Below, piece after piece: positions 5,791 to 37,352 of a stretch of 64,000 nucleotides of DNA. The notes under the pieces are model-generated. The model was not told the DNA's origin. It saw nothing but the letters and a program-made list of their open reading frames with translations, and did no database searches. The position numbers and the translations under genes are program-made. Position 1 is the first letter of the stretch. Each line of letters begins with the position of its first letter. The DNA is from an uncultured Opitutia bacterium (GTDB taxonomy: Bacteria; Verrucomicrobiota; Verrucomicrobiia; Opitutales; UBA953): the NCBI GenBank assembly GCA_903840355.1, contig CAIMFJ010000004.1:186001-250000 (forward strand), written 5' to 3'.

Positions 5791-7755
5791 ATGCTCATTC
5801 CTTTGCTCAGGCACCTTGGTCCTCGTTGGCTAGCCCAACGAGCCCGCTTTGCTTTAGCAAAAAAGTCAGGCTGGCTGGCGTCGCAAAGTCCCTGTTTGCC
5901 GTGGAGTAGTTTTGGCCCGCAGGGTGACAGGGCGGCGTTTGTGAAGACGTGGCAAGCACAGTCGCCCGTCTTACCTCATTATCATTTAAATCGCGTAACG
6001 ATGCGGGCTTGGCTGGCACAGCATGCCTCCAAGCACGACTTCGCGGTGGTAGCCGAGGCTCAAGCTTTAGTTCGTGGTCAGTTAAAAATTTTCTCTGGTA
6101 AGGATGTAGCGGTAGGCAATCCGCCGCTTTGGTTTAAAAATGTTCTTACGGGAGAAGCTCATGAGGCTACCAGTCACTGGTCGAAAATTAATGATCGAGT
6201 TGGCGCCGATATTAAAGGTGTCTGGGAGCCGTCGCGCTTTAGTTGGGCTTTAACTTTGGCGCGGGCTTGGTTGCACACAGGCGAGGAAGTTTACGCCCAA
6301 ACCTTTTGGGATTGGACGGAAGATTGGATGGCCAAAAATCCACCCAACGTTGGACCCAATTGGATGTGTGGCCAAGAGGCCTCGTTGCGGCTCATCGCTT
6401 TTACTTGGGCTCTACAAGTTTTCCGCGATCACCCTCAGGCGCGTTTAACTTTAGCTGCGCAGTTGGCCGACGCGACCGCCCAACGGGTTGAGTCGCACCT
6501 AGATTATGCGCTATCGCAGTCTAATAACCATGGGATCTCCGAGGCCATTGGGCTTTTGACCGTTGGCACGTTCTGGCCGAACTTACCTCGTGCTTCGCAT
6601 TGGCGCCAACGAGGTTTGGAAACTTTGGCGCAACAGACGTCGACACTGATTGCTGAAGATGGGAGTTTTAGTCAGCATTCGTCGAACTACCACCGGCTCT
6701 TGGTGCAGTTATTGACCTGGGCTGAATTAACGCAGCAAGCTCGAGGCGAAACGTTGCCGCCAGAGATTAAAAAGTCGGCTCAAGCGGCGACCTTATTTTT
6801 AAATAATCTCGTGCTACAAGATGGTACCGTCCCCCGTTATGGCGGTGACGATGGTGCTAACTTGTTCCCCTTGGCGGACAGTCCCTATGCTGATTTTCGC
6901 CCCGCGCTCGCTCCCGCTCTTTACTTGTTTCACCAAACATGGCTTCCGGCGGGTGCGTGGTCGGAAGCTTGTTTCTTGCTTTTGGGTAAATCAGAAGAAG
7001 GCGTGCTTAAAGTGCCAGATGAATTTTCGGCAGGAGGGTGCACCCTTTATCGCTCAACCAATCAGGCTTTATTTTTCCGTCATCCCACCGAGTTCCGTCA
7101 TCGCCCCGCTCACGCCGATCACTTACACGTAGCACTTCGCTATCAGGGGGCTTGGTTAACGGAAGATCTCGGAACTTATTCTTACAATGCGAAGCTCTCG
7201 CCTGGTCAGGGTTGGTCCGCTGCTCGCTTTCATAATGTAGTTACCATTAATGAGCGTGATCCCATGCGCCGGGTGGGACGCTTCTTGTGGTTACCGTGGA
7301 CGGTTTGTCATCCCTACGCGGTGCCCGTAGCGACTGGTAAGACTGCCGCTTATTACGATGGTCTCGAAGGTGGACGGGTGGCCAGGGCCGTGATTAATTT
7401 GTCAGAGGGTTTTGTGATTGTGGATCGCGTCACGCACTCGACTCCAGTGTCCGCCACTTTGCGGTGGCACGGACGTGATCAAGCCCGCCTTCACACTTTG
7501 CAGGTTTTTTGTTCTACCGCCGCCCAAGAGAGTTGGCTCTCGGCTGATAAAAATTCAGATCTCGGTTGGTACTCGGAGTTTTATGGCACGCGTGAAGCGT
7601 CGTGGGTACATGCACTTAAAGCGGAAGGAAAAACCATTTTCTTTCTCACCATTGTGACGCCAGAGGCGGTCTCCGTTGATTGGCAGCGGGGGACTTTTAA
7701 AATTGGTTCAGCGGTCTATAACTTAAACGCCAACTCAGATTCTTCGCCCGTTTAA
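5791..7755 (+). CDS. Heparinase II/III family protein (polysaccharide lyase-like)
   Basis: The 654-residue protein has an alpha-toroid N-terminal half with SQSNNHGISEAIGL (near residue 245) and a beta-rich C-terminal half with HRPAHADHLH and EDLGTYSYN. These are characteristic of the heparinase II/III-like superfamily. Relatives cleave uronic-acid-containing glycans by beta-elimination. No clear signal peptide was seen, so cytoplasmic or atypically exported location is possible. Its position between wecC and wecB matches a conserved cassette in exopolysaccharide clusters, where it may trim or edit ManNAcA-containing polymer. The activity itself has not been shown by the sequence. Confidence 0.85.
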   Translation: MLIPLLRHLGPRWLAQRARFALAKKSGWLASQSPCLPWSSFGPQGDRAAFVKTWQAQSPVLPHYHLNRVTMRAWLAQHASKHDFAVVAEAQALVRGQLKIFSGKDVAVGNPPLWFKNVLTGEAHEATSHWSKINDRVGADIKGVWEPSRFSWALTLARAWLHTGEEVYAQTFWDWTEDWMAKNPPNVGPNWMCGQEASLRLIAFTWALQVFRDHPQARLTLAAQLADATAQRVESHLDYALSQSNNHGISEAIGLLTVGTFWPNLPRASHWRQRGLETLAQQTSTLIAEDGSFSQHSSNYHRLLVQLLTWAELTQQARGETLPPEIKKSAQAATLFLNNLVLQDGTVPRYGGDDGANLFPLADSPYADFRPALAPALYLFHQTWLPAGAWSEACFLLLGKSEEGVLKVPDEFSAGGCTLYRSTNQALFFRHPTEFRHRPAHADHLHVALRYQGAWLTEDLGTYSYNAKLSPGQGWSAARFHNVVTINERDPMRRVGRFLWLPWTVCHPYAVPVATGKTAAYYDGLEGGRVARAVINLSEGFVIVDRVTHSTPVSATLRWHGRDQARLHTLQVFCSTAAQESWLSADKNSDLGWYSEFYGTREASWVHALKAEGKTIFFLTIVTPEAVSVDWQRGTFKIGSAVYNLNANSDSSPV

Positions 7756-10455: not shown

Positions 10456-11151
10456 ATGCCTTGTGCTATTATCACTGGGGCCTCTCGAGGCTTAGGCTTT
10501 GCCCTCGCTTCCCGTCTCTTGGCGGAAGGTTGGAAGGTTTACGGTTTTTCGCGTCAAGCCACAGGCCCAGAACACCCTGCCTTTGAGGCGGTGTCGGTCG
10601 ATGTGGGTGACGCCGATGCCGTCCAACGGGCGGTGGATAGTTTAAGCCAGCGAGGCGAAAAAATTGATCTCCTCGTGAACAACGCCGGGGCCGCTTCGTT
10701 GAATGCTTGCTTACTAACTCCCAGTGCCGTGGTCGCCTCCATCATGCGCGTCAACTTTTTGGGTACTTTCCACATGTTACAAGCCGTGGGCAAAATGATG
10801 GTCCGCCAACGTCGTGGTGATATTATTAATATCTCGACGGTCGCCGTGCCGCTTTCCTTGCCTGGCGAGGCCGCCTATGTGGCGAGTAAAGCAGCGGTGG
10901 AAGGGCTAACCCAAGTCGCGGCGCAAGAATTGGCCTCTGCGGGCGTGCACGTGCAAGCGGTGGGTTTTGGCCCGATTGCGACGGACTTAACGCGGGCAGT
11001 GAGTGCTGAACAATTGCGGAGTCTGAACCAAAAAATTGGTCGCCCGCAGGGGACGACGTTAGCCGAGGCGGTGGAATTTATCTTAGAATGCTACGCCCAG
11101 CGTCGCCCTGGTCCTCATTACCTCGCCGCTCAATTACCGAAACCGTTTTAA
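10456..11151 (+). CDS. SDR-family NAD(P)-dependent reductase (FabG-like)
   Basis: The 231-residue classical short-chain dehydrogenase has the cofactor motif TGASRGLG at residues 7-14, NNAG near 75-78, and a catalytic Ser127-Tyr141-Lys145 set in the YVASK motif. FabG-like members reduce 3-oxoacyl-ACP to 3-hydroxyacyl-ACP with NADPH. Being coupled between an acyl carrier protein and an acyl-activating ligase, it most likely acts on a carrier-bound ketoacyl group. A sugar substrate is the alternative. Its stop codon overlaps the next start (TAATG). Confidence 0.85.
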   Translation: MPCAIITGASRGLGFALASRLLAEGWKVYGFSRQATGPEHPAFEAVSVDVGDADAVQRAVDSLSQRGEKIDLLVNNAGAASLNACLLTPSAVVASIMRVNFLGTFHMLQAVGKMMVRQRRGDIINISTVAVPLSLPGEAAYVASKAAVEGLTQVAAQELASAGVHVQAVGFGPIATDLTRAVSAEQLRSLNQKIGRPQGTTLAEAVEFILECYAQRRPGPHYLAAQLPKPF

Positions 11152-12482
11152 TGCCTGCTTGGTATTTACAGCGTTGGGAGAAGTTCGCGACCAAAGTCGC
11201 CTTTATCAGCGAGGAGGCCACGTGCACCTATGCTGACTTGGTCAATTTCTATCAGCAGGCGGCGGCGACCTTGGCGCAACTGCAACTCACCGAGCCGCAA
11301 GGTTTTGCTTTAATGGGCGACCACGGGCCCGTCTCCACGGCTTGGTTGTTCCTGCTTCAGGAGCAGGGGCATTGGGTGGTGCCGTTAAGTACGGCGGCTG
11401 GAGATCATGCCGAGAAACTTACTCAAGTGCCTGTCCATTGGGTCATCCAGACGACGGCGACTCAGGCTTCGGTGGTGCGTGCCGAGGTTGCGAAGCACGA
11501 TGTTATCGCTACGGAATTGACGGCCTTGCGCCACGGGCTCGTGCTTTTTTCCAGTGGTACCAGTGGGCGACCCAAAATCATGGTGCAGGATTTGCCTAAT
11601 TTATTGAGTCGCTACGAGAGTCGCCGCGAAAATCACCTGCGTATCTTAGTCTTATTGGGTTTTGACCACATCGGTGGGCTTAACACGTTATGGGGTGCTT
11701 TGGCGGCTGGGTCCACTTTGGTCGTCGTTGCACACCGTGCCCCCAGTACGGTCCTGACGGCTTTAGCCAAATATCAGGTGAATGTTTTGCCGGCTTCTCC
11801 GACTTTTTTAAACCTCCTGGTGGTTGCTGGCGAATGGTCGCAGTATGACTTATCTGCGCTGCGTTTAATCACTTATGGTACGGAGCCCATGCCTCCTAGT
11901 CTTTTGGAGCGTTTAAGAGCCTTGTTGCCGCACGTTCGCTTAGTACAGACTTTTGGCACGACCGAAACGGGGATTTTGCAAACCGAAAGTGTGAGTGCTG
12001 ATTCGACGTTTCTGCGCTTGGTCGATCCAGCCGTGGAGTGGAAAGTCATCGACGGGGAGCTTTGGTTGAAAAGCCAGACGCAGATTAAGGGGTATTTTCG
12101 GCAAACTAGTAACGCTTTTACGGCGGATGGTTGGTTTCGCACGGGTGATCGCGTCGAACAGGCCGCTGATGGTTCTTTACGGATTTTAGGTCGCGAAGGG
12201 GAATCGATTAATGTGGGGGGCGAAAAGTTAATGCCCGTGGAAGTAGAAACCGTGCTTTTGGAAAACTCGCAAGTGGTCGATTGCCGCGTTTACGGGGTGC
12301 CTAATTTATTAACCGGCCAAACCGTCGTGGCTGATATTGTCACGTCAGCCACCGCTGCCCCTGAGCTGTTACGTGCGCAATTACGGCAACTTTGTCGTCA
12401 GCGTTTGCCCCGTTATAAAGTGCCTACCCAAATCAATTTCGTGAGCACCGTTAGTGGTGCTCGGCTCAAGAAAACTCGCTAA
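11151..12482 (+). CDS. Class I adenylate-forming acyl ligase
   Basis: The 443-residue protein has the ATP-binding loop SSGTSGRPK (about residues 134-142), the GTTETG motif, WFRTGDR, GREGESINVGGEK, and a near-terminal Lys-Lys-Thr matching the A10 catalytic lysine. It should activate a carboxylic acid as acyl-AMP and load it onto a phosphopantetheine thiol. It is shorter than typical acyl-CoA synthetases (about 500-550). The ATG at 11151 shares a base with the SDR stop; an upstream ATG at 11088 would overlap the SDR by 64 bases and is unlikely. The adjacent carrier protein at 10150 is the obvious acceptor. Confidence 0.85.
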   Translation: MPAWYLQRWEKFATKVAFISEEATCTYADLVNFYQQAAATLAQLQLTEPQGFALMGDHGPVSTAWLFLLQEQGHWVVPLSTAAGDHAEKLTQVPVHWVIQTTATQASVVRAEVAKHDVIATELTALRHGLVLFSSGTSGRPKIMVQDLPNLLSRYESRRENHLRILVLLGFDHIGGLNTLWGALAAGSTLVVVAHRAPSTVLTALAKYQVNVLPASPTFLNLLVVAGEWSQYDLSALRLITYGTEPMPPSLLERLRALLPHVRLVQTFGTTETGILQTESVSADSTFLRLVDPAVEWKVIDGELWLKSQTQIKGYFRQTSNAFTADGWFRTGDRVEQAADGSLRILGREGESINVGGEKLMPVEVETVLLENSQVVDCRVYGVPNLLTGQTVVADIVTSATAAPELLRAQLRQLCRQRLPRYKVPTQINFVSTVSGARLKKTR

Positions 12483-15597: not shown

Positions 15598-17496
15598 ATG
15601 TGTGGCATTGCTGGATATTTAGGTGATTACAGTGCGGAGCTCTTGCCCTTACTCGGACAGGCGCAGGCCCACCGCGGCCCGGATTATCAAGCTGTTTGGT
15701 CGGCGTCTCGCATCGGCTTAGCCCATCAACGCTTATCAATTCTTGATTTATCTCCGGCGGGCAATCAGCCGATGTGGGATGATGCGCAAAAGGTTATCTT
15801 AGTTTTTAATGGGGAGATTTATAATTACCGCGAACTGCGTCAGCGCTTAGAAGACGTCGGGGTAAAGTTCCGGGGTGAGAGTGATACGGAAGTTTTAGTA
15901 AATTTATTAAGTGTATTCGGGGCACCGAGTTTAGCGTGGCTCAACGGGATCTTCGCCCTGGCCGCGTGGTTCCCGGCCGAGCGGAAACTGTGGCTCGCCC
16001 GTGATGCTGCCGGGGTGAAGCCGCTTTATTGGGCTCAAGGTACTCAAGGGGTTTGCTTCGCTTCCGAACTGAAGTCGCTCCGTTTAATGCCTGGCTTGGA
16101 TTGGTCGATTGATCCGACGGCGATTACGGCCTACCTTTCTTTATTATACGCTCCAGGAGATTTAACTCCCGCTCGGGGCATTCGGAAAGTTTTGCCAGGG
16201 ACTTTACTCGAATGGCAAGAGGGCCAGCCGCTACGGAGTCAGCGTTTTGCTACCGAACTTTTTCGCCAAGAGATTGAAGATTTAAGTCTGAAGGATGCCG
16301 AGGTGGCCTGCCGTCATTACTTACAACAAGCCGTGCGCCGGCAGTTGGTTTCTGATGTGCCATTAGGCGGATTTCTTTCTGGCGGAGTTGATTCTACCGC
16401 CATTGCCCACTATGCAGTGCAAGCCTTGGGTGACGGTCGGCGTTATCCCTGCTTTACGATAGGTCACTCCGACGGAGCATTTGGTAAAGAGGGGTTTGTT
16501 GAAGACTACCCTTATGCACAATTGGCTAGTCGACGCTTGGGGGTGACTTTGCACGAAGCTTCGCCTGCTAATATTAAAGTCGATCAGATTGATCAGATGG
16601 TGCTGCAGCTTGATGAGCCGATTGCGGACTTGGCAGCGTTAACGACTTGGACGCTTTGCCAAAAGGCGCGTGAAGCTGGAATTAAAGTTTTATTATCAGG
16701 AGCGGGCGGGGATGATATCTTTACCGGCTATCGTCGCCATCAAGCCCTCGAGGCGGAAAAGTATTGGCGTTGGTGGCCTCTCGCTTGGCGCCGTCGACTA
16801 CGTCAGTGGGCGACACAAACTGAACATCAGACGCCGCTGTCCCGGCGTTTCCGGAAACTTTTCCGCTATGCCGATGCTTCCGATACGGAGCGGTTGGCGG
16901 GTTATTTTATCTGGATGGAAGAAAATACTTTGGCGTCCGCTCTCAGTGCCGATTTCCGCCAAAGTGCTGGGCTACGTCAGCCCTTAGATTTAATGACGTC
17001 GTCGCTGCAGTCTTTGCCCGCCCAAGCGAGTCCGTTGCAACAAATGCTCTACCTCGACCGGAGCCATTTTTTGGCTGACCAGAATTTAGTTTATACCGAC
17101 AAGATGGCGATGGCTTGTGGGGTGGAAGTGCGGGTGCCCTTTTTAGATTTAGACCTAATGAATTTTACCGAACGGCTGCCCGATGTTTATAAACAATCGG
17201 GTTCGCACGGTAAGTTTATCCTTAAGCGTGCGCTCCAAGGAGTGCTGCCAGATGAGATACTGCATCGACCTAAGTCGGGCTTTGGCCTGCCCCTACGCCA
17301 ACTTTTACATACGGTTTATGCGCCTCGTTTACAGGAGTTAGCCCGGAGTGGACGTCTTGATGCCACGGGAGTCTTTTCGGGTGATGGCGTTTTACGTTTG
17401 TTAGCCGATGATGCTCAAGGTAAAGTTGACGCCGCTTACCCGTTATTAGGAGTCCTATGTGTGGAATCCTGGTTGCGCCAATTCACCCAACACTAA
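15598..17496 (+). CDS. Asparagine synthase-type glutamine amidotransferase (AsnB family)
   Basis: The 632-residue protein begins MCGIAGYLG, exposing Cys2 as the class II glutaminase nucleophile, and has the PP-loop SGGVDST near residues 260-266 of the synthetase domain. AsnB makes asparagine from aspartate, glutamine and ATP. In polysaccharide clusters, paralogues of this family such as WbpS are linked to conversion of uronic acids to uronamides. Here WecB/WecC provide a uronic acid (ManNAcA), so amidation of a sugar is a reasonable alternative to asparagine synthesis. The sequence alone cannot decide. Confidence 0.88.
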   Translation: MCGIAGYLGDYSAELLPLLGQAQAHRGPDYQAVWSASRIGLAHQRLSILDLSPAGNQPMWDDAQKVILVFNGEIYNYRELRQRLEDVGVKFRGESDTEVLVNLLSVFGAPSLAWLNGIFALAAWFPAERKLWLARDAAGVKPLYWAQGTQGVCFASELKSLRLMPGLDWSIDPTAITAYLSLLYAPGDLTPARGIRKVLPGTLLEWQEGQPLRSQRFATELFRQEIEDLSLKDAEVACRHYLQQAVRRQLVSDVPLGGFLSGGVDSTAIAHYAVQALGDGRRYPCFTIGHSDGAFGKEGFVEDYPYAQLASRRLGVTLHEASPANIKVDQIDQMVLQLDEPIADLAALTTWTLCQKAREAGIKVLLSGAGGDDIFTGYRRHQALEAEKYWRWWPLAWRRRLRQWATQTEHQTPLSRRFRKLFRYADASDTERLAGYFIWMEENTLASALSADFRQSAGLRQPLDLMTSSLQSLPAQASPLQQMLYLDRSHFLADQNLVYTDKMAMACGVEVRVPFLDLDLMNFTERLPDVYKQSGSHGKFILKRALQGVLPDEILHRPKSGFGLPLRQLLHTVYAPRLQELARSGRLDATGVFSGDGVLRLLADDAQGKVDAAYPLLGVLCVESWLRQFTQH

Positions 17497-17500
17497 CCCC

Positions 17501-18565
17501 ATGCACCATTCTTTGAATCACGTTCGCTTGGCGGGGTTAGCCGTAACGGTGGGGTCTACGACCAAAGATTTTATCGCTGAGGGTTTAAAACTGGGTCGAC
17601 CAGCGGCTCAACTTGAACGCGTGGCCCGCACGATTGGGTTGCAGCAACGTCAAGTGACAACTCCCGGTGTCACGGCTTTAGATTTATGTGAAAATGCCAC
17701 GAGGCGTTTGTTGGCAGCGATGGACTTAGATCCCGCCTCGTTGGATGCGATTATTTTTGTCACGCAAACCCCTGATCATAGTCAGCCCAGCAATGCCACG
17801 ATTTTGCATGGTCGTCTCGGGCTAAGTACCTCGGCTGCAGCCTTTGATATCTCCCTTGGCTGTTCGGGCTGGGTCTATGGCTTGCATCAAGCTGCACTCC
17901 TCTGTGCCCATGCAGGAAGGGTGTTGTTGTGTGCGGGTGATACCCTGAGTTGCTTAACGCATCCGGAAGATCACGCCGTCCACCCACTTTTTGGCGATGC
18001 AGGGTCAGCGACGATTTTAGAAAAGACCGGAACGCCTGCCCCGTGGCATTTCTGTTTAGGCACGGATGGCACGCGAGCCTCGGCGATTCAAGTTCCCGTG
18101 GGTGGAGCTCGGCAGCCCGCAGGGTCGGCTCCTTTGCCAGTTATTAAAGATGCGGATGGCAATAGTCGTCGTGCGGATCAGTTGTGCATGGATGGGGCAG
18201 AGGTTTTTAATTTCAGCCTCCGCGAAGTACCTCCTGCGGTGAAAGTGGTGATGCAAATGGCCCAGTGGACGCCACAAGACGCAGATGCCCTGATACTTCA
18301 CCAAGCAAATCGCTTTCTGGTCACGAGTCTGGGGCAGAAGTGCGGTTTCCCAGCGGATAAGGTGCCCGCAGATTTAGTAGCCAAGTATGGCAATCAAAGC
18401 TCGGCTTCGGTGCCTGCGGCCTTGATTCAGGCTTATGGTCCAGCCCTCGCCGAACGGCGTCTCAAAATTGTAGGCTGTGGTTTTGGCGTGGGCCTGTCTT
18501 GGGGAGCGTTTGCCGCAGAACTTGGTCCATGTGTTACTGTGCCTATCGAACCTTACTCGCCATGA
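17501..18565 (+). CDS. 3-oxoacyl-ACP synthase III-like ketosynthase (FabH family)
   Basis: The 354-residue protein keeps the full FabH triad: Cys121 in SLGCSGW, His267 in LILHQANR and Asn298 in KYGNQSS. Such enzymes condense acyl-CoA with malonyl-ACP. It lies 4 bases downstream of the amidotransferase; the ATG at 17501 is preferred over one at 17459 that would overlap by 38 bases. Its end overlaps the start of a second acyl carrier protein, which strongly suggests a dedicated partner. It is inferred to start or extend an acyl chain used for glycan decoration. Confidence 0.87.
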   Translation: MHHSLNHVRLAGLAVTVGSTTKDFIAEGLKLGRPAAQLERVARTIGLQQRQVTTPGVTALDLCENATRRLLAAMDLDPASLDAIIFVTQTPDHSQPSNATILHGRLGLSTSAAAFDISLGCSGWVYGLHQAALLCAHAGRVLLCAGDTLSCLTHPEDHAVHPLFGDAGSATILEKTGTPAPWHFCLGTDGTRASAIQVPVGGARQPAGSAPLPVIKDADGNSRRADQLCMDGAEVFNFSLREVPPAVKVVMQMAQWTPQDADALILHQANRFLVTSLGQKCGFPADKVPADLVAKYGNQSSASVPAALIQAYGPALAERRLKIVGCGFGVGLSWGAFAAELGPCVTVPIEPYSP

Positions 18566-26135: not shown

Positions 26136-27143
26136 ATGCTTAAAAGTTTAAGTCTCTTAGTCGCTTGTTTTCTGATGGGCTGCGTCAGCAGTTCTGATGC
26201 GTTCCAACAACAAGCCAGTTTAGGACGCGGAATTAATTTAGGAAATTCTTTAGAGGCGCCAGTTGAAGGGGCTTGGGGTCCTAAGATTACCGATGAAGAT
26301 TTAGTACGACTTAAAAAGGCGGGCTTCAATTCGGTGCGGATTCCGACTCGTTGGTCAGCTCATGCCTTGAAGGTGGCGCCTTACACCATTGACCCTGCTT
26401 TTATGGCACGGGTGGATCACGTGGTGCAAGTGGCATTAGCCCAAGGTTTGGTGGTGGTTTTAAATGCCCATCATTATCAAGAAATCGATGAGGCTCCAGC
26501 TGAGCACCGGGAGCGTTTAGCCATGATGTGGCACCAAATTGCCACGCATTTCGCCGATTTCCCAGAGTCGCTTCAATTTGAAATCTATAATGAACCTAAC
26601 ACCCAGCATACCGCTGAGGCTTGGAATTTAACTTTGGCGGCAGCTTTGCAGGAGATTCGAAAAACAAATCCTACGCGTGCGGTGCATATCGGTGGGGTGG
26701 AGTGGAATAAAATTGGGACTCTAAAAGATTTAAAACTGCCGCCAGAAGATCGTCATATCATTGCCCAGATTCATTACTACGCACCGTTCCATTTTACGCA
26801 CCAAAATGCTTCGTGGGTCAAAGGTTCTACTGCTTGGAATGGCACTAAGTGGGATGGCACTGAGGCCGACAAAGAGGCGGTGCGCCGAGATTTTAAGGCG
26901 GCAGCGGATTGGTCGCAAAAAGAGCAACGGCCTGTTTTCATGGGTGAGTTTGGCACTTCTGCAGGCGTGGCCGACATGGACGCTGGCTTACTAAATCCTT
27001 GGACTGCCTTTATCGCAAGTGAAGCTCCACGCTATCATTTAACTTGGGCTTACTGGGAGTATCAGGCCAATTTTGGAATTTGGGATCCCAAAGCCCAACA
27101 ATGGCGTGAGCCTTTAAAGGCTACCTTGCTAGGTGATAATTGA
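26136..27143 (+). CDS. Glycoside hydrolase family 5 lipoprotein (cellulase-like)
   Basis: The 335-residue protein has a lipoprotein signal with lipobox LMGC (Cys16), then GRGINLGNSLEAP typical of GH5. The acid/base is Glu153 in FEIYNEPN and the nucleophile Glu271 in PVFMGEFGTS. GH5 enzymes hydrolyse beta-glucans, beta-mannans and related glycans. It would be anchored in the periplasm or outer membrane. It follows the operon terminator and precedes a DUF4838 gene by 55 bases, so it may trim the cell's own polymer or feed on another. The substrate is not known. Confidence 0.9.
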   Translation: MLKSLSLLVACFLMGCVSSSDAFQQQASLGRGINLGNSLEAPVEGAWGPKITDEDLVRLKKAGFNSVRIPTRWSAHALKVAPYTIDPAFMARVDHVVQVALAQGLVVVLNAHHYQEIDEAPAEHRERLAMMWHQIATHFADFPESLQFEIYNEPNTQHTAEAWNLTLAAALQEIRKTNPTRAVHIGGVEWNKIGTLKDLKLPPEDRHIIAQIHYYAPFHFTHQNASWVKGSTAWNGTKWDGTEADKEAVRRDFKAAADWSQKEQRPVFMGEFGTSAGVADMDAGLLNPWTAFIASEAPRYHLTWAYWEYQANFGIWDPKAQQWREPLKATLLGDN

Positions 27144-27198
27144 GTCTAGGAATGGTGAAAAGCCTTCCTCTTTTTGATTCGCTAACTAGGTTGGGGAT

Positions 27199-29490
27199 GT
27201 GAGGTGGCTTTGTTGTTTCTGCTTTTGGGGTGCAAGCGTGGCTTTGCACGCAGCGGCATTGTTTGAAAACGGCCAATGGCAGGTGAACCTGGTTCAGCCA
27301 GCGAACCCCGAACTCGATGAATGGTATGCCTCGCAGATGTTGGTGCAGTGGTGTGAAATTGTCACGGGCCAACGCCCCGTGGTTCTTTCAGAAGAAGAGG
27401 ACACTTCGTCTCGGCCGGCTATCTATATTGGACAAACTGCTGCTTTTAGAAAGAGCCAGCATCAATGGAGTGTCACCGAGGGTGACGAGGCGGTTTGTTT
27501 CACGCAAGGGTCCCAGATTTTTCTAGTAGGGAATAATCCTGTCGCGACCCGCCAAGCTGTGGGTCGCTTTTGTGAGCGGACGCTTAAAGTCTTTTTTGCT
27601 TTTCCTGGTGTCGTCGGTGCCGATTGGGAACCGCAGGTTCGCATCGATTGGCCACAGCCTGATGTTTTTAAACCAGCGTTTGCGTGGCGAGAAGTGTCGG
27701 GGCTAGGGAACGAGCTTTCGCAAGAGTGGGCGTATGCGATTGGTTATGGTCGAGCCCCGGCTTTTTCCCACGGGCTCTACGCCGCCTTTGGCAAATTACC
27801 CGCGGCTGAAGCTAAAGTGTTTAGTCCGATGGTACGGGGTAAGCGCGTGCCTCTGCAAGGTTCGGCCTATGAGCCTAACCCTAATTTATTAGCACCCCAG
27901 GCTGCCGAGGTGGGAGCCAAGTACGCCCGTGATTGGTTTCATCACCATCCACAAGATTTCAGTGTGCCTTTGGGTGTGAACGATACCTTGAGTTATGACG
28001 ACCGGGCGGAGAGCAGCGGTTGGTATCGTGACCGCCCCGTCCGGACGGATTACGTGATTAATTATTTAAATCAGGTCGCCAATTCCTTCTGGGAGCCCAC
28101 GGGTGACCTGCAGGGACAGCATCACGCCTTGGGTACCTTGGCTTATTTGCAAACCCTACAAGCGCCCCAAGTAAAAGTGCACCCCGCGATCTTTCCCTGG
28201 GTATGTGCGGATCGTCTTGGCTATGCAGATGGAGCCTTTGCTCAGATGGAAGCCGCTAATTTAGCGGCTTGGGTGAAGTCTGGGGCTCGTCGCGTGGGGG
28301 CTTATGATTACTGGTATGGCGTCGATTTTTGCACGCCACGTATTCATTTCACGGCTCAAGCCCAAGCGATTCAACAAGCTGCTCAAGCGGGCGTGGTGGG
28401 TTGGTATGCGGAAGTCTCGCCGCTCTGGGCCTTTGATGCTCCCAAACTTTGGCTAGGTGCTAAATTATTAGAGAACCCTCATCAGTCCGCGGAAGCTTTG
28501 CTGCAGCAATGGTTTCACGCGGCCTACGGGGTAGCAGCTCTTCCGATGCAAGAAATCTACCGAACTTGTGAGCAGGCGTGGACGCGCGATGCTCATTTAG
28601 GAGGGACACAGCAATGGCTCCGACATTTTCGAGCCGAGCACAGTAGTGCGGTCTTTAACGCTAACGAACTAGCTTCGGTGACGCATCACTTAGTCGAAGC
28701 TGAAACCTTATTAAAAAATAATGCTGCCGAGAGCGGTGCCAGAAAAGAACGACAGTTGGAACGTCTCCGTCAGTGGCAAGAGGCTTGGGATTTGATTTTG
28801 AAAATGCGTGACGTCTATGAGACTCGTCAGGCCAAGCCGTCAACGCGGACGCAGGTGCGTGCTGCCTTGGAAAGACTCAGTCGCGCGGAGCAAACCTTGG
28901 CGTTGGCGGAACAGCGTTTTAATATCGCATGGGGTGCTTATGGCCGGCCGGTTAAGTGGGCGGAGATGGTTGCTCGTGATCCACGTCCTGAATGGTTTGA
29001 ACGCGCGCAAACGACTCCTGGTGGTTTAACCTTTTTACGTGATTGGGCCAGTCGGGATGATGGTCTGGGTCTTTGGCTTTATAGGGCGAGTCAGGCTGAG
29101 TCGGTATCACAACCGTTAAAGTTTGAGGCACCAGTAGAGCTCAGCCCCTCGCGGTATAATCAAGTGACGGAGAGTCCGACGGTTCGACACTTGGTGGCAC
29201 CCGCGGGCGTCTTGAGCATGGCGGTACCGCTGACGGTCCAGCCTGGTTCGCTTTGGCGGGCTCGTGTGAAACTTAGTCCCGTTGCTGAAGCAGAGGCTCA
29301 AGCGAAACTCGAAGTTTATAGTATCGGTGCCGTTAAACCCTTTTATCGGGCAGTAAAGGTCGATCCCGAAAGCGGGACCTTGTTAGTACAAATCCCCTCC
29401 GGGGTAACGCAGGTTATTTTCAAACTTAGTTTTGAAAAGGAAATCGCTTTCGAGTCTGCGACCCTTACTGAATATCAACTCTCGCGATAA
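27199..29490 (+). CDS. DUF4838 domain-containing secreted protein
   Basis: The 763-residue protein opens with a short hydrophobic signal-like stretch (to about residue 20) and an N-terminal region resembling the alpha-glucuronidase-associated fold, with RPAIYIGQTAAF. The central part includes VGWYAEVSPLWAFDAPKLWLGAKL, as in DUF4838 proteins. These occur with polysaccharide-degrading genes, but their activity is not established. The GTG start is supported by the preceding stop and the following hydrophobic leader. The stop overlaps the next start (TAATG). Confidence 0.75.
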   Translation: MRWLCCFCFWGASVALHAAALFENGQWQVNLVQPANPELDEWYASQMLVQWCEIVTGQRPVVLSEEEDTSSRPAIYIGQTAAFRKSQHQWSVTEGDEAVCFTQGSQIFLVGNNPVATRQAVGRFCERTLKVFFAFPGVVGADWEPQVRIDWPQPDVFKPAFAWREVSGLGNELSQEWAYAIGYGRAPAFSHGLYAAFGKLPAAEAKVFSPMVRGKRVPLQGSAYEPNPNLLAPQAAEVGAKYARDWFHHHPQDFSVPLGVNDTLSYDDRAESSGWYRDRPVRTDYVINYLNQVANSFWEPTGDLQGQHHALGTLAYLQTLQAPQVKVHPAIFPWVCADRLGYADGAFAQMEAANLAAWVKSGARRVGAYDYWYGVDFCTPRIHFTAQAQAIQQAAQAGVVGWYAEVSPLWAFDAPKLWLGAKLLENPHQSAEALLQQWFHAAYGVAALPMQEIYRTCEQAWTRDAHLGGTQQWLRHFRAEHSSAVFNANELASVTHHLVEAETLLKNNAAESGARKERQLERLRQWQEAWDLILKMRDVYETRQAKPSTRTQVRAALERLSRAEQTLALAEQRFNIAWGAYGRPVKWAEMVARDPRPEWFERAQTTPGGLTFLRDWASRDDGLGLWLYRASQAESVSQPLKFEAPVELSPSRYNQVTESPTVRHLVAPAGVLSMAVPLTVQPGSLWRARVKLSPVAEAEAQAKLEVYSIGAVKPFYRAVKVDPESGTLLVQIPSGVTQVIFKLSFEKEIAFESATLTEYQLSR

Positions 29491-31367: not shown

Positions 31368-32153
31368 ATGCTTTTCGGAATCACAGGAGGTCGTGGGACC
31401 TTGGGCAAAATTTTGCAAGCAAAGCTCCAAGCCCGTGGTGCCGAAATGAGCCTGTTTGGCGGTGATATCTGCGAAGTCAGGGAAGTTAAACAGTGGTTGA
31501 ATTCGGCGCAGCCGCAACGAGTGATTCATTTGGCCGCCTTAGTGCCGACGCAGGCGGTGCAACAGAATCCTGAAAAAGCCTTTCAAGTGAATGTCGGCGG
31601 CACGGAGAATTTAATGCAGGCTTCGGCTGAGGTCGGGCTTCGCCCTTGGTTGTTTTACGCCAGTAGTAGCCACGTTTATCAGCCCCAATCCGTCGCCCTC
31701 AAAGAAACCGATCCGTTGGCGCCTTTAACTGTTTATGGTCAGACAAAGCGCAGTGGCGAGCAGGTCGTCGAATTAAAGGCTCCGCCGGCCCAAGTTAAGT
31801 TCTGCATCGGACGTATTTTTAGTTTTTATCACCCAACGCAAAAGGGCTCGTTCTTATACCCAAGTTTGCAGCAACGCTTTGCGACCGAGGATTTGACGAA
31901 ACCCTTTAAGCTAATGGGAGCAGATGATATCCGCGACCTTTCCAATGCGGAGCACATCGTAGATCAAATCCTGCAATTAGCAGACTGCCAAGCCGAGGGG
32001 GTTTATAATTTAGGTTCGGGAAAAGGGACGAAAATTCGTGACTTCGTCCAAACGATGGCCCCCCGCCCACTTCAAATTGAGAACGCCAGTCCTGGGCCAG
32101 CTTCATCCTTGGTTGCAGACCTCACCCGTTTGCGACAACGCTTAGCCCAATGA
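31368..32153 (+). CDS. NAD-dependent epimerase/reductase-type extended SDR (4-ketosugar reductase-like)
   Basis: The 261-residue protein has TGGRGTLG as the nucleotide-binding glycine motif, an ASSSHVY serine segment and YGQTK as the catalytic tyrosine-lysine motif. It resembles 4-keto-6-deoxyhexose reductases or epimerase-reductases of the RmlD/Fcl type, but is shorter than most. Coupled by ATGA to a glycosyltransferase and followed by a ColD/RfbH-like dehydratase, it could reduce the dehydrated 4-keto intermediate to a 3,6-dideoxy sugar. That assignment is inferred from context. Confidence 0.75.
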   Translation: MLFGITGGRGTLGKILQAKLQARGAEMSLFGGDICEVREVKQWLNSAQPQRVIHLAALVPTQAVQQNPEKAFQVNVGGTENLMQASAEVGLRPWLFYASSSHVYQPQSVALKETDPLAPLTVYGQTKRSGEQVVELKAPPAQVKFCIGRIFSFYHPTQKGSFLYPSLQQRFATEDLTKPFKLMGADDIRDLSNAEHIVDQILQLADCQAEGVYNLGSGKGTKIRDFVQTMAPRPLQIENASPGPASSLVADLTRLRQRLAQ

Positions 32154-32998
32154 CCCCTCAGGTCTCCATCGTCATCCCCACCTTTAACCGCTCGGCGATG
32201 TTAAAGCGCTGCATCGATGCAGCCTTAGCCCAGACCTTGCCTTGTGAGGTGATTGTTTGTGACCATGGAAGCACCGATGACACTCCGCAGGTTGCCCGTG
32301 CCTATGGTGAGCGCATTCGTTATTTACGCCGCGAGCACGATTCCGGGGTTCACTTTGCATGGTTAGATGGCGTGATTTCTGCGAAGGGAGAATTCGTTCA
32401 TATTAACTTTGATGATGATTTTATTAGTCCAGAATTCGCTGCCCGTTGCTTAGCGTTGATGACTCTGGACGTGGGCTTCTGTTTTACCGTTACCGAAATT
32501 CGTGACGAAGTGACGCAACAGCCCATGTCTTACTTGTTTAAGGACTTTGGAGCTACGGGAGTTTATAAGTCGAGTCGCTTCATGCATTATCAAATCCGCG
32601 GCTTGGTCTCTCCAGGGGCGACGCTGATTCGTCGTCAGGACATTTTGAATCAACTCTTTGTCGGTAAAATTCCATTTACTAATTTTGAATATCGCGGCGT
32701 CGGACCAGATTGGCTTATGACCGCCATGACGACGTTAGATTATCCGAAATTTGCCTTTGTGGCCGAACCTTTGGCGGTCTTTTCCGCCCACGAAGGTTCC
32801 ATTACCATTGATGCGCATCGTGATGAAGCCCGCAAAAAAGCTTTATATCGGGCTTATCAACAAGCTCGCCTTTATTACACCACGGTCCGTCTGGTGAAAA
32901 CCTTCCGGCTGGATTTGCTAGCATGGGTTTGGCTTTTTCTCCTGCGCGTGAAAGCCCGGACGATTAACGCCCTGATGCGACCTTTTCGCCAAAAATAA
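32150..32998 (+). CDS. Glycosyltransferase family 2
   Basis: The 282-residue protein begins VSIVIPTFNRSAMLKRCIDAAL and has DHGSTDDT and the metal-binding NFDDDF, standard for a family 2 GT-A transferase. It ends in a basic C-terminal tail after a hydrophobic helix, which may associate with the membrane. Its start overlaps the SDR stop (ATGA). It probably acts on the same glycan as the neighbouring dehydratase; the sugar is unknown. Confidence 0.87.
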   Translation: MTPQVSIVIPTFNRSAMLKRCIDAALAQTLPCEVIVCDHGSTDDTPQVARAYGERIRYLRREHDSGVHFAWLDGVISAKGEFVHINFDDDFISPEFAARCLALMTLDVGFCFTVTEIRDEVTQQPMSYLFKDFGATGVYKSSRFMHYQIRGLVSPGATLIRRQDILNQLFVGKIPFTNFEYRGVGPDWLMTAMTTLDYPKFAFVAEPLAVFSAHEGSITIDAHRDEARKKALYRAYQQARLYYTTVRLVKTFRLDLLAWVWLFLLRVKARTINALMRPFRQK

Positions 32999-33000
32999 TT

Positions 33001-34164
33001 ATGTGTGCTCGCACCGTCAAATTAGCCGATAACACGATTTCCCAGGAGGAAATTGCTTCGTTGGCGACATGGTTACAGCAAAATCAGCAACTGACTAAAG
33101 GACCGTTAACGCGCCAGTTTGAGGCGGAATTTGCTGCCTATTCGGGCACCAAGTACAGTATTATGGTCAATAGTGGTTCATCGGCTAATTTGTTGATGGC
33201 TTATAGTTTGGGTGAAGCCGGATACCTCCGAAATAAAAAGGTGATTGTGCCTGCAGTCTCTTGGATCACCACGCTTTCACCCTTTATTCAATTAGGCTTT
33301 GAATGTTTTCTGTGCGACTCCGACCCGCAAGATTTAGGTGTCGACTTAAATCATCTTGAGGAGCTTTTGAAAAAAGAACGCCCCGCGTTATTGATTCTAG
33401 TGCATATCTTGGGGCATCCAAATCAAATGGAGGCCATTCACCGTCTGTGTGCCCAATATGATTGCCGAGTCATTGAAGATGCCTGCGAGGCCTTAGGTTC
33501 GGAGTATCAAGGCAAGAAGACGGGGGCCCTTTCTTTGGCTGGGTCTTTCTCGTTTTATTACGGTCACCATATTTCGACGATTGAGGGTGGGGCTATCACG
33601 ACGAGCGATGCTAAGCTCTATAGTGTGATGTTATCGATTCGCTCACACGGTTGGTCGCGCGACGTCCCTGACGCTGACCGGCAGGCTTGGCGTGAGGAAT
33701 ATAAAATCGATGAGTTTCGCGAATTTTACAGCTTCTACTACGCAGGTTATAATCTACGGTCTTCGGACTTGAATGCCTATTTAGGGAGTAATCAACTGAA
33801 ACGCTTGGATGCGATTGCGAAGATTCGGGGCCGCAACTTTGAACTTTATCGTCAGGCATTGCCCGAGTTCTGGAGCCAAAGTAGTCAGCACAGTTTTGTT
33901 TCGAGCTTTGCCTATGGGACTTTTGTCAAAAATCGACTCGAAGTGGCCCGGCATCTTTTAGCCCAAGGGATTGAATGCCGTCCTTTGGTGTGTGGTAGCA
34001 TGGGCCGCCAGCCTTTCTGGATTAAACGTTTTGGGGTCACCCGCCTTAAGGTCGCTGATCAAGTACATGATTTCGGGCTATATTTACCGAACCATGCGAA
34101 CATCACTCCCGAAGATATTGCGTATGTGGCGCAGCATTTCCGGTCAGTAGCGGTTCCGCTTTAA
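33001..34164 (+). CDS. ColD/RfbH-like PLP-dependent sugar 3-dehydratase
   Basis: The 387-residue DegT-family protein has SFYYGHHISTIEGG, where His189 stands at the position of the PLP-binding lysine. Lysine-less relatives with histidine there are ColD and RfbH, which remove the 3-hydroxyl of 4-keto-6-deoxyhexoses instead of aminating them. Length matches ColD (about 388). No 2Fe-2S partner (RfbI type) gene was seen, which favours the ColD-like, iron-sulfur-independent mode. The product would be a 4-keto-3,6-dideoxyhexose. GDP-mannose 4,6-dehydratase, needed upstream, is not in the window. Confidence 0.85.
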   Translation: MCARTVKLADNTISQEEIASLATWLQQNQQLTKGPLTRQFEAEFAAYSGTKYSIMVNSGSSANLLMAYSLGEAGYLRNKKVIVPAVSWITTLSPFIQLGFECFLCDSDPQDLGVDLNHLEELLKKERPALLILVHILGHPNQMEAIHRLCAQYDCRVIEDACEALGSEYQGKKTGALSLAGSFSFYYGHHISTIEGGAITTSDAKLYSVMLSIRSHGWSRDVPDADRQAWREEYKIDEFREFYSFYYAGYNLRSSDLNAYLGSNQLKRLDAIAKIRGRNFELYRQALPEFWSQSSQHSFVSSFAYGTFVKNRLEVARHLLAQGIECRPLVCGSMGRQPFWIKRFGVTRLKVADQVHDFGLYLPNHANITPEDIAYVAQHFRSVAVPL

Positions 34165-34165
34165 A

Positions 34166-34942
34166 TTAAAGGGGCCAGAACCTTTGTTTACAACGTTGGC
34201 GAGCTTTCCGACGCAGATGACGGGCCAACAGTTTGCTTAAGTAGTTCCGAGCCAGAGGATTTTCTCCTTGGCATTGATGGTGAATAATCCGGTGCCATTC
34301 AGCGAGACAGCGTGGCAATTTTTGATTAGAGAGTCCTCCTGGTTGGTAACAACAGATAACGCCAGGTTGATAAAGAATGCGCGCGCCTTGCTCCCGTAAT
34401 TTTTCTAGCCAGTTAAAGTCAGCGGCGATGTGGTATGTTAAATCGTAGGGGTGCTTTTTAATTATATCCGTGCGAATGAGGGTGGCTTGGTGGCAGGGAT
34501 GACGGGTGAGCCAAAAGCGGGCATTTCCTTTTAATAACTCTTCATGTAGGATGCGTACTTCCGTGGCTCGCCGAATTTTTTTATTAAAAATATGGTCGCC
34601 GTAGACTACGTCGGCGTGGCCTTTTTCTGCCGCTTGGATGAGCTGGGAGAAATGTTCGTGGATCAAGGTATCACCTGCATTTAGGAATAAAACATACTTA
34701 CCTTGGGCCCGGGTCGCGCCTTGATTCATGGCGTCATAGGGGCCTCCATCGGGCTGTGAAGTCCAGTCTGTGGGCTTAAAGTTAGTTTCGAGGTAAGGCA
34801 CCGTTTGATCGGTGGAAGCTCCATCGACGACGAGGTGTTCGTAAGTTATATTTTTTAGGGCTAAGACACTGGCACGAGTGGCTTGGAGACCCGCAAGATT
34901 ATTGCGAGTTACCGTGATGATGGTAACAACTGGTGCAGTCAT
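34166..34942 (-). CDS. Glycosyltransferase family 2, opposite strand
   Basis: The 258-residue protein begins PVVTIITVTRNNLAGLQAT and has VDGASTDQT, QPDGGPYDAMNQG and the FLNAGD metal site. This subtype is frequent in O-antigen and capsule clusters. A longer start at 34963 adds seven residues (MIEKYSI); I prefer the start at 34942 because family members begin just before the first beta strand. It lies between two forward genes, one base from the dehydratase stop, and looks somewhat more A/T-rich than its neighbours, which may indicate insertion. Confidence 0.85.
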   Translation of the reverse strand: MTAPVVTIITVTRNNLAGLQATRASVLALKNITYEHLVVDGASTDQTVPYLETNFKPTDWTSQPDGGPYDAMNQGATRAQGKYVLFLNAGDTLIHEHFSQLIQAAEKGHADVVYGDHIFNKKIRRATEVRILHEELLKGNARFWLTRHPCHQATLIRTDIIKKHPYDLTYHIAADFNWLEKLREQGARILYQPGVICCYQPGGLSNQKLPRCLAEWHRIIHHQCQGENPLARNYLSKLLARHLRRKARQRCKQRFWPL

Positions 34943-35034
34943 TATTGAATATTTTTCTATCATGAGGGCTTAAGATGGCAACTATCGTATCGCCTTTTTG
35001 GGAACGAGGCTTGTCAAGTTAGGGGAGCTCTTCA

Positions 35035-36333
35035 ATGTCGGCGTTCATGCGCATCTTGCATCTGAATAAGATGGATTCAGGAGGTGGAGCCGCCGATGGC
35101 TTCATGCGCATTCATCGAGCCTTGTTACAAGCTGGTCATGATTCGATGGCATATGTTTTAAAGCCGCAAAATTCTGAGGGGATTACGTTTAACGTTAAAA
35201 AAATATTAAAATCCAGTTCTCACCTGCAGTGGGCGGTCGCTCGTGCTTATGCGAAGTTGCAGCGCTGGGGGCAAAAAGCTTCGGGCGTTTATGATTTTGA
35301 TGTCGAAGCTAATTTTCCACCCGAGCCCCTGATTCAACACCTACAAAAACTTCCCCCGGTAGATTTTATTTTAGTTCATTGGGCCGCAGGATTTCTACGA
35401 GCTGAGTCTATTGAACAAATCAGCCGAGCGTTACAGGCTCCCGTGGGGCTTTGGCAAGTTGACATGGCCCATATGACGGGGGGTTGCCATTATGCTTTGG
35501 GGTGTGACCGTTATCAAAGCGGTTGTGGGGCCTGTCCCTTACTAAACTCGACCGATTCACAGGATATTTCGGCCCAACAGGCCAGTCAGCGGGCTGCCGT
35601 CTGGCAGCGTCTCCGGCCTTTACTGTTGTCGCCGAGTTCGTGGTCCGCGCAACAAGCTCAGGACAGTAAAATTCTTCGTGGGTTCCCCGAGGCAATTATT
35701 CCGATTCCACTCGACTTGAAGCGTTTTAATCCCGGTCGTGCCCAAGAAGCCCGCCAAGCGTTAAACCTTCCCCAAGATCGGCGGATCTTTTTGGTGCGAG
35801 GTACGCACCCGAGTATTACTTACAAAGGTTTTCAGGTTTTTCGCCAGGCCTTAGAACAGTTAGCTGAAGCGGCTGAAAGCCTGCCCTATAAGATTCATAT
35901 TATTGTAGCCGGGACGGCAGGGTTATTGCCCGCCCAACTAGGATCCATCACGGTCACGGATTTGGGACCTTTGGTGGGAGATCAGGCTTTGGCCCAAGCC
36001 TATCAAGCATGTGATGTTTTTGTGAGCCCTTCAATTAATGATGCGGGTCCTATGATGGTGGGCGAGGCGATGCTTTGTGCCCGGCCAGTGGTGGCCTTCC
36101 CCGTGGGGATTGCCATTGATTTAGTAAAAACGAATCAGACGGGTACGTTAGTGCGTCCCATTGGAGATGCGACGGCTCTAGCGTCAGTGATGGCCCATTA
36201 TGCGACATTGGAGCAGGCCGCTTTGGAGGCACAGCAACCCCAAGCGCGTCGCTTAGCCGAAACTCTTTTCTCCCCCGTCTATTTTGAACAGGCCTTTACG
36301 GCCGCGGTTCAGCAGTATTCTAAACAGCGATGA
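35035..36333 (+). CDS. Glycosyltransferase family 4 (WcaC-like with Cys-rich insert)
   Basis: The 432-residue protein begins RILHLNKMDSGGGAADGFMRIH and has the cysteine-rich insert GGCHYALGCDRYQSGCGACP near residues 148-170, a mark of a WcaC-like family 4 subgroup. The C-terminal half has FVSPSINDAGPMMVGEAMLC in the donor site. The start at 35035 is supported by an AGGGGAG sequence 7 bases upstream, one of the few true Shine-Dalgarno sites here; a second ATG lies at 35047. It overlaps the GT10 gene by four bases. Confidence 0.87.
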   Translation: MSAFMRILHLNKMDSGGGAADGFMRIHRALLQAGHDSMAYVLKPQNSEGITFNVKKILKSSSHLQWAVARAYAKLQRWGQKASGVYDFDVEANFPPEPLIQHLQKLPPVDFILVHWAAGFLRAESIEQISRALQAPVGLWQVDMAHMTGGCHYALGCDRYQSGCGACPLLNSTDSQDISAQQASQRAAVWQRLRPLLLSPSSWSAQQAQDSKILRGFPEAIIPIPLDLKRFNPGRAQEARQALNLPQDRRIFLVRGTHPSITYKGFQVFRQALEQLAEAAESLPYKIHIIVAGTAGLLPAQLGSITVTDLGPLVGDQALAQAYQACDVFVSPSINDAGPMMVGEAMLCARPVVAFPVGIAIDLVKTNQTGTLVRPIGDATALASVMAHYATLEQAALEAQQPQARRLAETLFSPVYFEQAFTAAVQQYSKQR

Positions 36334-37352
36334 TTTACGGTTCTCTACTTTACCGCGACTACGACAAGAATGCACTTTTCACCCCGGGTGCGGGCGAAAA
36401 CAACGGAGAGTTCTATTTGCCGTATCGCTTGCTTAAAGAGCGTATGGCCCAAGAGGGTATTGAACTGAATACGCCAGATGTGAATCAAGGTCGCTCAGTC
36501 GCATTTGAATTACATATTAATGCGCGTCGCCAAGCTCCACAGAGTCGGGCTTACACGTACCTGTTTGAAAATCCTTTAATCCGACCGTTGAATCGCGATC
36601 TCGAAGCTTTAGGTCGCTATGCGAAGTGGTTCACCTGGGACGCTGAATTATTAGGCCAACCTAAGGCGATTGAATTGCCTTACCCTAATGATTTACGCCC
36701 TCGACCCGCGGTCGGCTTTAACCAACGACCCTATTTTTGCTCGCTAGTCGCTTCGAACAAGGCGTTAGCGATTAATGACCCGCGAGATCAGTACCAAGAA
36801 CGTGTCAAAATTATCAATTGGTTCGAACGTCATGCCCCGGATGATTTCCATTTATTTGGTCGGGGCTGGGAGCGACCTGCCGCTCGTGCTGGTCGGTGGG
36901 GTCGGGTTTATAATCAGGTACAGAAGTTGTGGGGTCGGGTGCGACCGCTGAAGTCGCCCTACACTACTTGGCATGGGCCCGTGGATGATAAGTTGCAGGT
37001 AATGCAGCAGTCACGCTTCTGCTTGGCTCACGAGAATTGCCGCGATTTAGAAGGCTATATCACGGAGAAGATTTTTGATAGTTTTAGGGCTGGTTGTGTA
37101 CCTGTCTATGTCGGGCCAGCTGATATTACCCGCTGGATTCCAGCAAACTGCTTTATTGATGGCCGCCAGTTTCCCAAGCCCGAGTCGCTTTATGCGGCGT
37201 TAAAACAAGTCGATGCGGCCGCCTTTGCGACTTACCAAACTCATATCCAAAACTTTTTGGCCTCACCTGCCGCGGCTCGTTTTTCGCAAGAGAACTTTGT
37301 AGAAGTTCTCACGACTAAGATACGCGACGACCTTAAGGCGGCGGGAGTTTAG
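36330..37352 (+). CDS. GT10 family (alpha-1,3-fucosyltransferase-like) glycosyltransferase
   Basis: The 340-residue protein has the GT10 core YITEKIFDSFRAGCVPVYVGP (shown here only in part: ITEKIFDSF and VPVYVGP), with FCLAHENC just before it. Known members transfer fucose from GDP-fucose to glycan acceptors. Because a ColD-like dehydratase is nearby, GDP-colitose, a close analogue of GDP-fucose, is a possible donor. Its stop codon shares four bases (TTAG) with the convergent dnaE. It ends the polysaccharide part of the window. Confidence 0.9.
   Translation: MIYGSLLYRDYDKNALFTPGAGENNGEFYLPYRLLKERMAQEGIELNTPDVNQGRSVAFELHINARRQAPQSRAYTYLFENPLIRPLNRDLEALGRYAKWFTWDAELLGQPKAIELPYPNDLRPRPAVGFNQRPYFCSLVASNKALAINDPRDQYQERVKIINWFERHAPDDFHLFGRGWERPAARAGRWGRVYNQVQKLWGRVRPLKSPYTTWHGPVDDKLQVMQQSRFCLAHENCRDLEGYITEKIFDSFRAGCVPVYVGPADITRWIPANCFIDGRQFPKPESLYAALKQVDAAAFATYQTHIQNFLASPAAARFSQENFVEVLTTKIRDDLKAAGV

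Follow-up and report, generated by a model that had tools for sequence, protein, structure and literature searches.

The 64,000-nucleotide stretch of DNA analysed here (hereafter the window; C4:186001-250000 of the 2.27 Mb genome of an uncultured freshwater Opitutia bacterium) carries a cassette of three genes that encode a short-chain dehydrogenase/reductase (SDR), a glycosyltransferase of family GT2 and a ColD-like dehydratase of the DegT family. On balance, this cassette probably serves to synthesise a 3,6-dideoxyhexose in GDP-activated form and to transfer it, by way of Gmd, a ColD-type 3-dehydratase, a reductase resembling GDP-6-deoxy-D-mannose (4-keto) reductase (RMD) and the GT2 protein. 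The dehydratase encoded in the window very probably removes an oxygen from a GDP-sugar and thereby starts the formation of a rare 3,6-dideoxy sugar. Since the second enzyme of the cassette differs from the one employed for colitose, the product is probably a different GDP-sugar, perhaps an undescribed one.

The open reading frame 33001-34164 encodes a DegT/DnrJ/EryC1 protein of full length (PF01041, E 4e-75) in which residues 188-190, within the segment SFYYGHHIST, are Gly-His-His. An earlier sequence-only reading of this stretch had placed His189 at the position of the pyridoxal phosphate (PLP) lysine, as in ColD, and this is borne out: His189 aligns with His188 of ColD (SFYSHHIAT) and with the lysine of the lysine-type members, and is kept in all 79 homologues scanned, with the His-His pair in 78 of them. 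Lysine occupies this position in the other aligned DegT proteins of the genome (at window position 20150 and in L022 and L024), so His189 is not a genome-wide peculiarity. Among relatives of solved structure, ColD/WbdK (E. coli O55/O111; PDB 2GMS) comes out on top with 213 bits, followed by RfbH/E1, the CDP-4-keto-6-deoxyglucose 3-dehydratase, with 131 bits, and then by lysine-type aminotransferases. At 33% identity, the dehydratase has W88, D160, S184, H189, the HGW at 216-218, F245, N251, R253 and R327 in common with ColD, whereas RfbH, which shares the DegT fold and the histidine in place of lysine, has Phe, Tyr and Lys at 88, 245 and 253, respectively. Out of four RfbH-invariant cysteines, read in this analysis as the likely ligands of the iron-sulphur (Fe-S) cluster, the window protein retains one (C162, present in ColD too); the next two positions are occupied by V222 and D224, and the fourth falls in an insertion of RfbH and is absent. 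Against the RfbH model, the dehydratase scores 203 bits, with a cut-off of 423. Among the annotated neighbours there was no gene for a 2Fe-2S partner, in line with the sequence-only reading (the partner was not searched for genome-wide). ColD employs pyridoxamine phosphate (PMP) and acts without an Fe-S cluster (PMC8987622). The same chemistry is the best-supported reading of the window sequence, so the earlier preference for the ColD type stands.

The phylogenetic tree, built with E. coli O55 ColD (L181), plasmid ColD homologues beside ColC-type genes, five RfbH and three lysine-type proteins as references, puts the window dehydratase on the histidine side, with the lysine type split off at a support of 100/99 and RfbH at 100/100; it is thus found on the side of ColD, not with the true aminotransferases. 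The true ColD proteins (O55, Chelatococcus, Phaeobacter G2, Sulfitobacter) group tightly together at a support of 100/100, with the window family left outside, in a clade of its own that has 39 rows and a support of 100/98. All relatives from the plasmid collection were canonical ColD-like proteins with less than 40% identity, which served as a contrast. As far as the sequences go, then, the window protein is ColD-like but outside ColD proper: it resembles ColD in the catalytic histidine, the incomplete Fe-S set, the active-site residues listed above and the link to gmd, and differs in its separate clade, in the low overall identity, in having a short RMD-like SDR rather than ColC as the partner and in the presence of a GT2 gene within the cassette.

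Several more distant relatives show other gene neighbourhoods. Cyanophage ColD-like proteins from the phage collection, at 35% identity, branch separately in the tree, and in Synechococcus phage ACG-2014f (L191:3053-6170) a ColD-like 'aminotransferase' adjoins two SDR genes, one of them Fcl-like with the Cys/His pair. An archaeal plasmid of Haladaptatus pallidirubidus (L192:3037-6167) carries a run of gmd, a reductase devoid of the epimerase Cys/His pair and a ColD-like gene, which is possibly another D-series variant. In G262 (L060:6107-11027), a distant ColD-like protein (31% identity, histidine kept) is encoded between HddA-like and HddC-like genes, with fcl nearby, which suggests a variant based on a heptose or linked to GDP. 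An assembly of Nocardioides marinus with the alphaproteobacterial cassette and a 'Gemmatimonadetes' metagenome-assembled genome with an 81% identical dehydratase (L114, L097) look like contamination or binning errors.

In the window, the stop of the SDR gene overlaps the start of the GT2 gene, and neighbouring genes of the trio overlap or lie 2 bp apart. The arrangement SDR-GT2-dehydratase is collinear, often with overlapping genes, in 51 of the 56 SDR-bearing loci of a cross-phylum set that spans Opitutae, Bacteroidota, Alphaproteobacteria and other lineages. Within the genus of the window bacterium, the trio is found in 11 of the 14 other dehydratase-bearing genomes and is cut by contig ends in two more; G325 has the dehydratase without the SDR and GT2 genes. 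The GT2 protein (PF00535), in which the DDD at residues 88-90 is invariant, is, on gene linkage only, the probable transferase of the dideoxyhexose.

A gene for the enzyme that would supply the substrate lies 3-4 kb upstream of the window: gmd and fcl are located at C4:181908-183913, and the gmd product scores 558 bits against a curated cut-off of 415, so that the objection of a missing 4,6-dehydratase, which the sequence-only reading had raised against itself, fails. The only Fcl-type match of the genome is 51% identical to Fcl and 39% to ColC. Across phyla, gmd is above the cut-off in 44 of 50 genomes that carry the dehydratase, compared to 6 of 14 control genomes, and is present in 28 of the 56 loci that have both the dehydratase and the SDR, in 16 of these directly downstream (18 if over-called starts of open reading frames are allowed for). 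The order SDR-GT2-dehydratase-gmd-fcl recurs in Flavobacterium, Rhizobium, Acetobacter and roseobacters, and in Pelagibacter gmd directly adjoins the SDR-dehydratase pair on the opposite strand. In G012, a genome from another family of the order, the cassette stands alone between unrelated genes; a ManC-like protein and Gmd are encoded, and neither RmlA nor RfbF was found by the profile searches on which all genome-wide absences reported here are based. In the window genome itself, no glucose-1-phosphate cytidylyltransferase (RfbF) and no HddC-like gene were found. RmlA and RmlB are encoded on another contig, C3, where (L024:6663-10171) their genes and one for a lysine-type DegT aminotransferase lie together, suggesting a separate dTDP-amino-sugar pathway. 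RmlA-level matches are absent from 13 of 18 carriers, G012 among them.

ColC possesses Ser107, Cys109, Tyr136, Lys140 and His179 of GDP-fucose synthase, as do all 26 Fcl proteins encoded near cassettes, which are 49-67% identical to E. coli Fcl (GDP-fucose synthase) and 32-41% to ColC. In the cassette SDR, S99, Y123 and K127 are invariant among 28 homologues, and the equivalents of Cys109 and His179 are missing, the epimerase positions being taken by Ser (with a family-wide His beside it) and Phe. ColC/WbdJ, the GDP-L-colitose synthase, is an extended SDR too and would be expected to use the same 4-keto intermediate, but the cassette SDR shows no significant BLAST similarity to it (E 0.28). 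When the 28-sequence profile was compared with solved structures, GDP-6-deoxy-D-mannose reductases came first (2pk3, 110.1 bits; 6x3b, 109.7 bits), and no GDP-fucose synthase was among the best 60 matches. The AlphaFold2 model of the SDR (predicted local distance difference test score 96) superimposes on RMD with a TM-score of 0.88, and 2pk3 and 6x3b have the highest TM-scores among the matches listed. The cassette SDR differs from RMD (PDB 2PK3, 6X3B) in being only about 23-25% identical and some 50 residues shorter, in the family-wide histidine adjoining the catalytic serine and in its constant position beside a 3-dehydratase in the loci seen. True ColD loci elsewhere have the order gmd-ColC-ColD. 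Four Pelagibacter genomes (G416, G418, G419 and G421) encode Gmd, and no Fcl/ColC-level match was found in these incomplete genomes; an SDR is clearly encoded next to the dehydratase in three of them (L144, L146, L150), and the fourth (L147) has a fragment at a contig edge. Because the SDR lacks the Cys/His pair of ColC and Fcl and is RMD-like, a D-series product is predicted, that is, reduction without C5 epimerisation to GDP-tyvelose or its C4 epimer rather than to GDP-L-colitose. Of the colitose-like branch proposed in the sequence-only reading, the ColD-type dehydratase and a GDP-linked 3,6-dideoxyhexose are supported, whereas colitose as the product is doubtful.

In the pathway that we propose, Gmd, the gene for which is present, would convert GDP-D-mannose to GDP-4-keto-6-deoxy-D-mannose, from which the window dehydratase, using PMP and His189 and no Fe-S cluster, would remove the C3 hydroxyl to yield GDP-4-keto-3,6-dideoxy-D-mannose, with glutamate restoring PMP if the mechanism follows that of ColD. 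The cassette SDR would then reduce the C4 keto group to give GDP-3,6-dideoxy-D-mannose (GDP-tyvelose) or the C4 epimer, and the GT2 protein, as gene linkage suggests, might pass the sugar to a surface polysaccharide. That this is a new way of making a D-3,6-dideoxyhexose in GDP-linked form, leading from GDP-mannose via Gmd, the ColD-like dehydratase and the RMD-like reductase to GDP-tyvelose or its C4 epimer, with a dedicated GT2 protein, is a tentative proposal to which we give a little less than an even chance. The 3,6-dideoxyhexoses, which act as strong antigens on cell surfaces, have been described chiefly in enteric bacteria, via CDP-linked sugars or GDP-colitose, and the characterised route to tyvelose is CDP-linked. 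No mention of 'GDP-tyvelose' was found in the literature searched, and nothing of use turned up there on 3,6-dideoxyhexoses in the lineages concerned. If the proposal is true, 3,6-dideoxyhexoses are more widespread than this, extending to abundant bacteria of fresh and marine waters, Pelagibacter among them, one more nucleotide sugar is added, and the SDR-GT2-ColD-like arrangement becomes a genome marker that predicts a GDP-linked D-3,6-dideoxyhexose. Furthermore, the automatic annotation 'ColD means colitose' can mislead where the reductase partner differs.

Several observations weigh against this proposal. The clade of the window protein, known from sequence, is only 33% identical to ColD. 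The lead of RMD over other extended SDRs is small, with the next matches at 108.7 and 102 bits, and the structural match with the best E-value carries the annotation UDP-glucose 4-epimerase. The Pelagibacter genomes without an Fcl/ColC match are incomplete, and Fcl could act as ColC, since the window genome encodes it, as do 42 of 50 carriers. Within the genus of the window bacterium, gmd is no commoner in carriers of the dehydratase (15/18) than in other genomes (14/20; p 0.45, which, like the p-values for the GT10 gene below, comes from related genomes and is indicative only). Given that gmd is common in the genus and not enriched with the dehydratase, this comparison is neutral, and the link to gmd rests on gene adjacency and co-occurrence across phyla. 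Finally, searches of the window genome and of the genus revealed no ManC-type mannose-1-phosphate guanylyltransferase, despite the presence of gmd and fcl, and on this point the check suggested with the sequence-only reading came back negative. An RfaE2-like nucleotidyltransferase (PF01467) is encoded directly upstream of gmd, outside the window (C4:181362-181898; L023:11363-11902). Because the gene is co-distributed with gmd, occurring in the same 28 genomes of the genus (partial gmd in G174 and G269 counted) and in none of the 7 that lack gmd, its product is a possible source of GDP-mannose by non-orthologous replacement of mannose-1-phosphate guanylyltransferase.

Which other explanations could accommodate these findings? 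The most serious one is canonical colitose synthesis, in which the Fcl of the genome, doubling as ColC, or an SDR that does epimerise C5 would yield GDP-L-colitose in the manner of ColD-ColC of E. coli O55. The substrate logic, with gmd in common, would be the same, true ColC belongs to the Fcl family, and Fcl adjoins the cassette in many alphaproteobacteria and in Flavobacterium; nevertheless, we regard this possibility as unlikely, considering that the cassette-adjacent Fcl proteins are closer to GDP-fucose synthase than to ColC, that the SDR has neither significant similarity to ColC nor the Cys/His pair, that four Pelagibacter genomes have gmd without an Fcl/ColC match and that true ColD forms its own clade and is paired with ColC. 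A different 4-keto sugar nucleotide, dTDP-4-keto-6-deoxyglucose or a GDP-heptose, could be the substrate, as might be suggested by RmlA and RmlB in the window genome and by the HddA-/HddC-like neighbours of the distant protein in G262. This is less probable still, given that gmd is the recurrent neighbour and that searches of the window genome gave no HddC-like gene; the dTDP route as the general substrate was rejected because RmlA-level matches are missing in most carriers examined, including G012.

Two further explanations concern the dehydratase itself, and we assign only a very slight chance to either. An enzyme of the RfbH/E1 type, with CDP-4-keto-6-deoxyglucose as its substrate and a separate Fe-S reductase as its partner, would account for the histidine and for the 203 bits to the RfbH model, but this score is far under the cut-off, and the CDP route was rejected on the strength of the cysteines, the search for a cytidylyltransferase gene and the separate clade of RfbH in the tree. 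Alternatively, lysine-less DegT proteins can arise through simple loss, and the window protein might be a degenerate aminotransferase with no dehydratase function. Such decay is hard to reconcile with the conservation of His189 in every homologue scanned, with the ColD residues W88, F245 and R253 and with the maintenance of the gene in a conserved cassette across several phyla.

The sequence-only reading had pointed to an SDR gene (31368) and a gene for a GT10-type protein (36330) close to the dehydratase gene and had assigned the attachment of the dideoxyhexose to the latter. Both are real open reading frames, and a GDP-linked 3,6-dideoxyhexose is likely, but the functional unit is SDR-GT2-dehydratase, with the GT10 gene outside it, and the role assigned to the GT10 protein was rejected because its distribution is independent of the dehydratase: orthologues are present in 6 of the 18 carriers and in 5 of the 20 genomes without the dehydratase (p 0.72), and G012, whose cassette stands by itself, has none. 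The PF00852 match of this protein is limited to residues 213-298 (E 7e-14), and its similarity to solved fucosyltransferases is weak (best E 7e-8). All 11 genomes with the GT10 gene have gmd and none of the 9 genomes without gmd has it (p 0.04), as expected of a GDP-fucose transferase; the probable donor for this protein is GDP-L-fucose produced by Gmd and Fcl.

Table. Features of the predicted dideoxyhexose cassette and of the nearby GT10 gene (window coordinates)
Feature	Position	Strand	Basis
SDR, 261 aa, predicted NAD(P)H-dependent 4-ketoreductase (RMD-like), cassette gene 1	31368..32153	+	S99/Y123/K127, PDB profile matches, structure prediction
GT2 glycosyltransferase, 282 aa, probable dideoxyhexose transferase	32150..32998	+	PF00535; place between SDR and dehydratase
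ColD-like PMP-dependent nucleotide-sugar 3-dehydratase (predicted), 387 aa	33001..34164	+	PF01041, alignment, tree
Codon of catalytic His189 (PLP-lysine position)	33565..33567	+	His in all 79 homologues
GT10-type protein, probably GDP-fucose transferase, outside cassette	36330..37352	+	PF00852 residues 213-298; distribution

The polysaccharide locus in the window also encodes a GH5 cellulase, a DUF4838 protein and a heparinase II/III-like protein (26136-29490 and 5791-7755). The same locus includes genes for an AMP-binding enzyme and a KAS III-like protein (11088-12482 and 17459-18565), which perhaps serve acyl modification.

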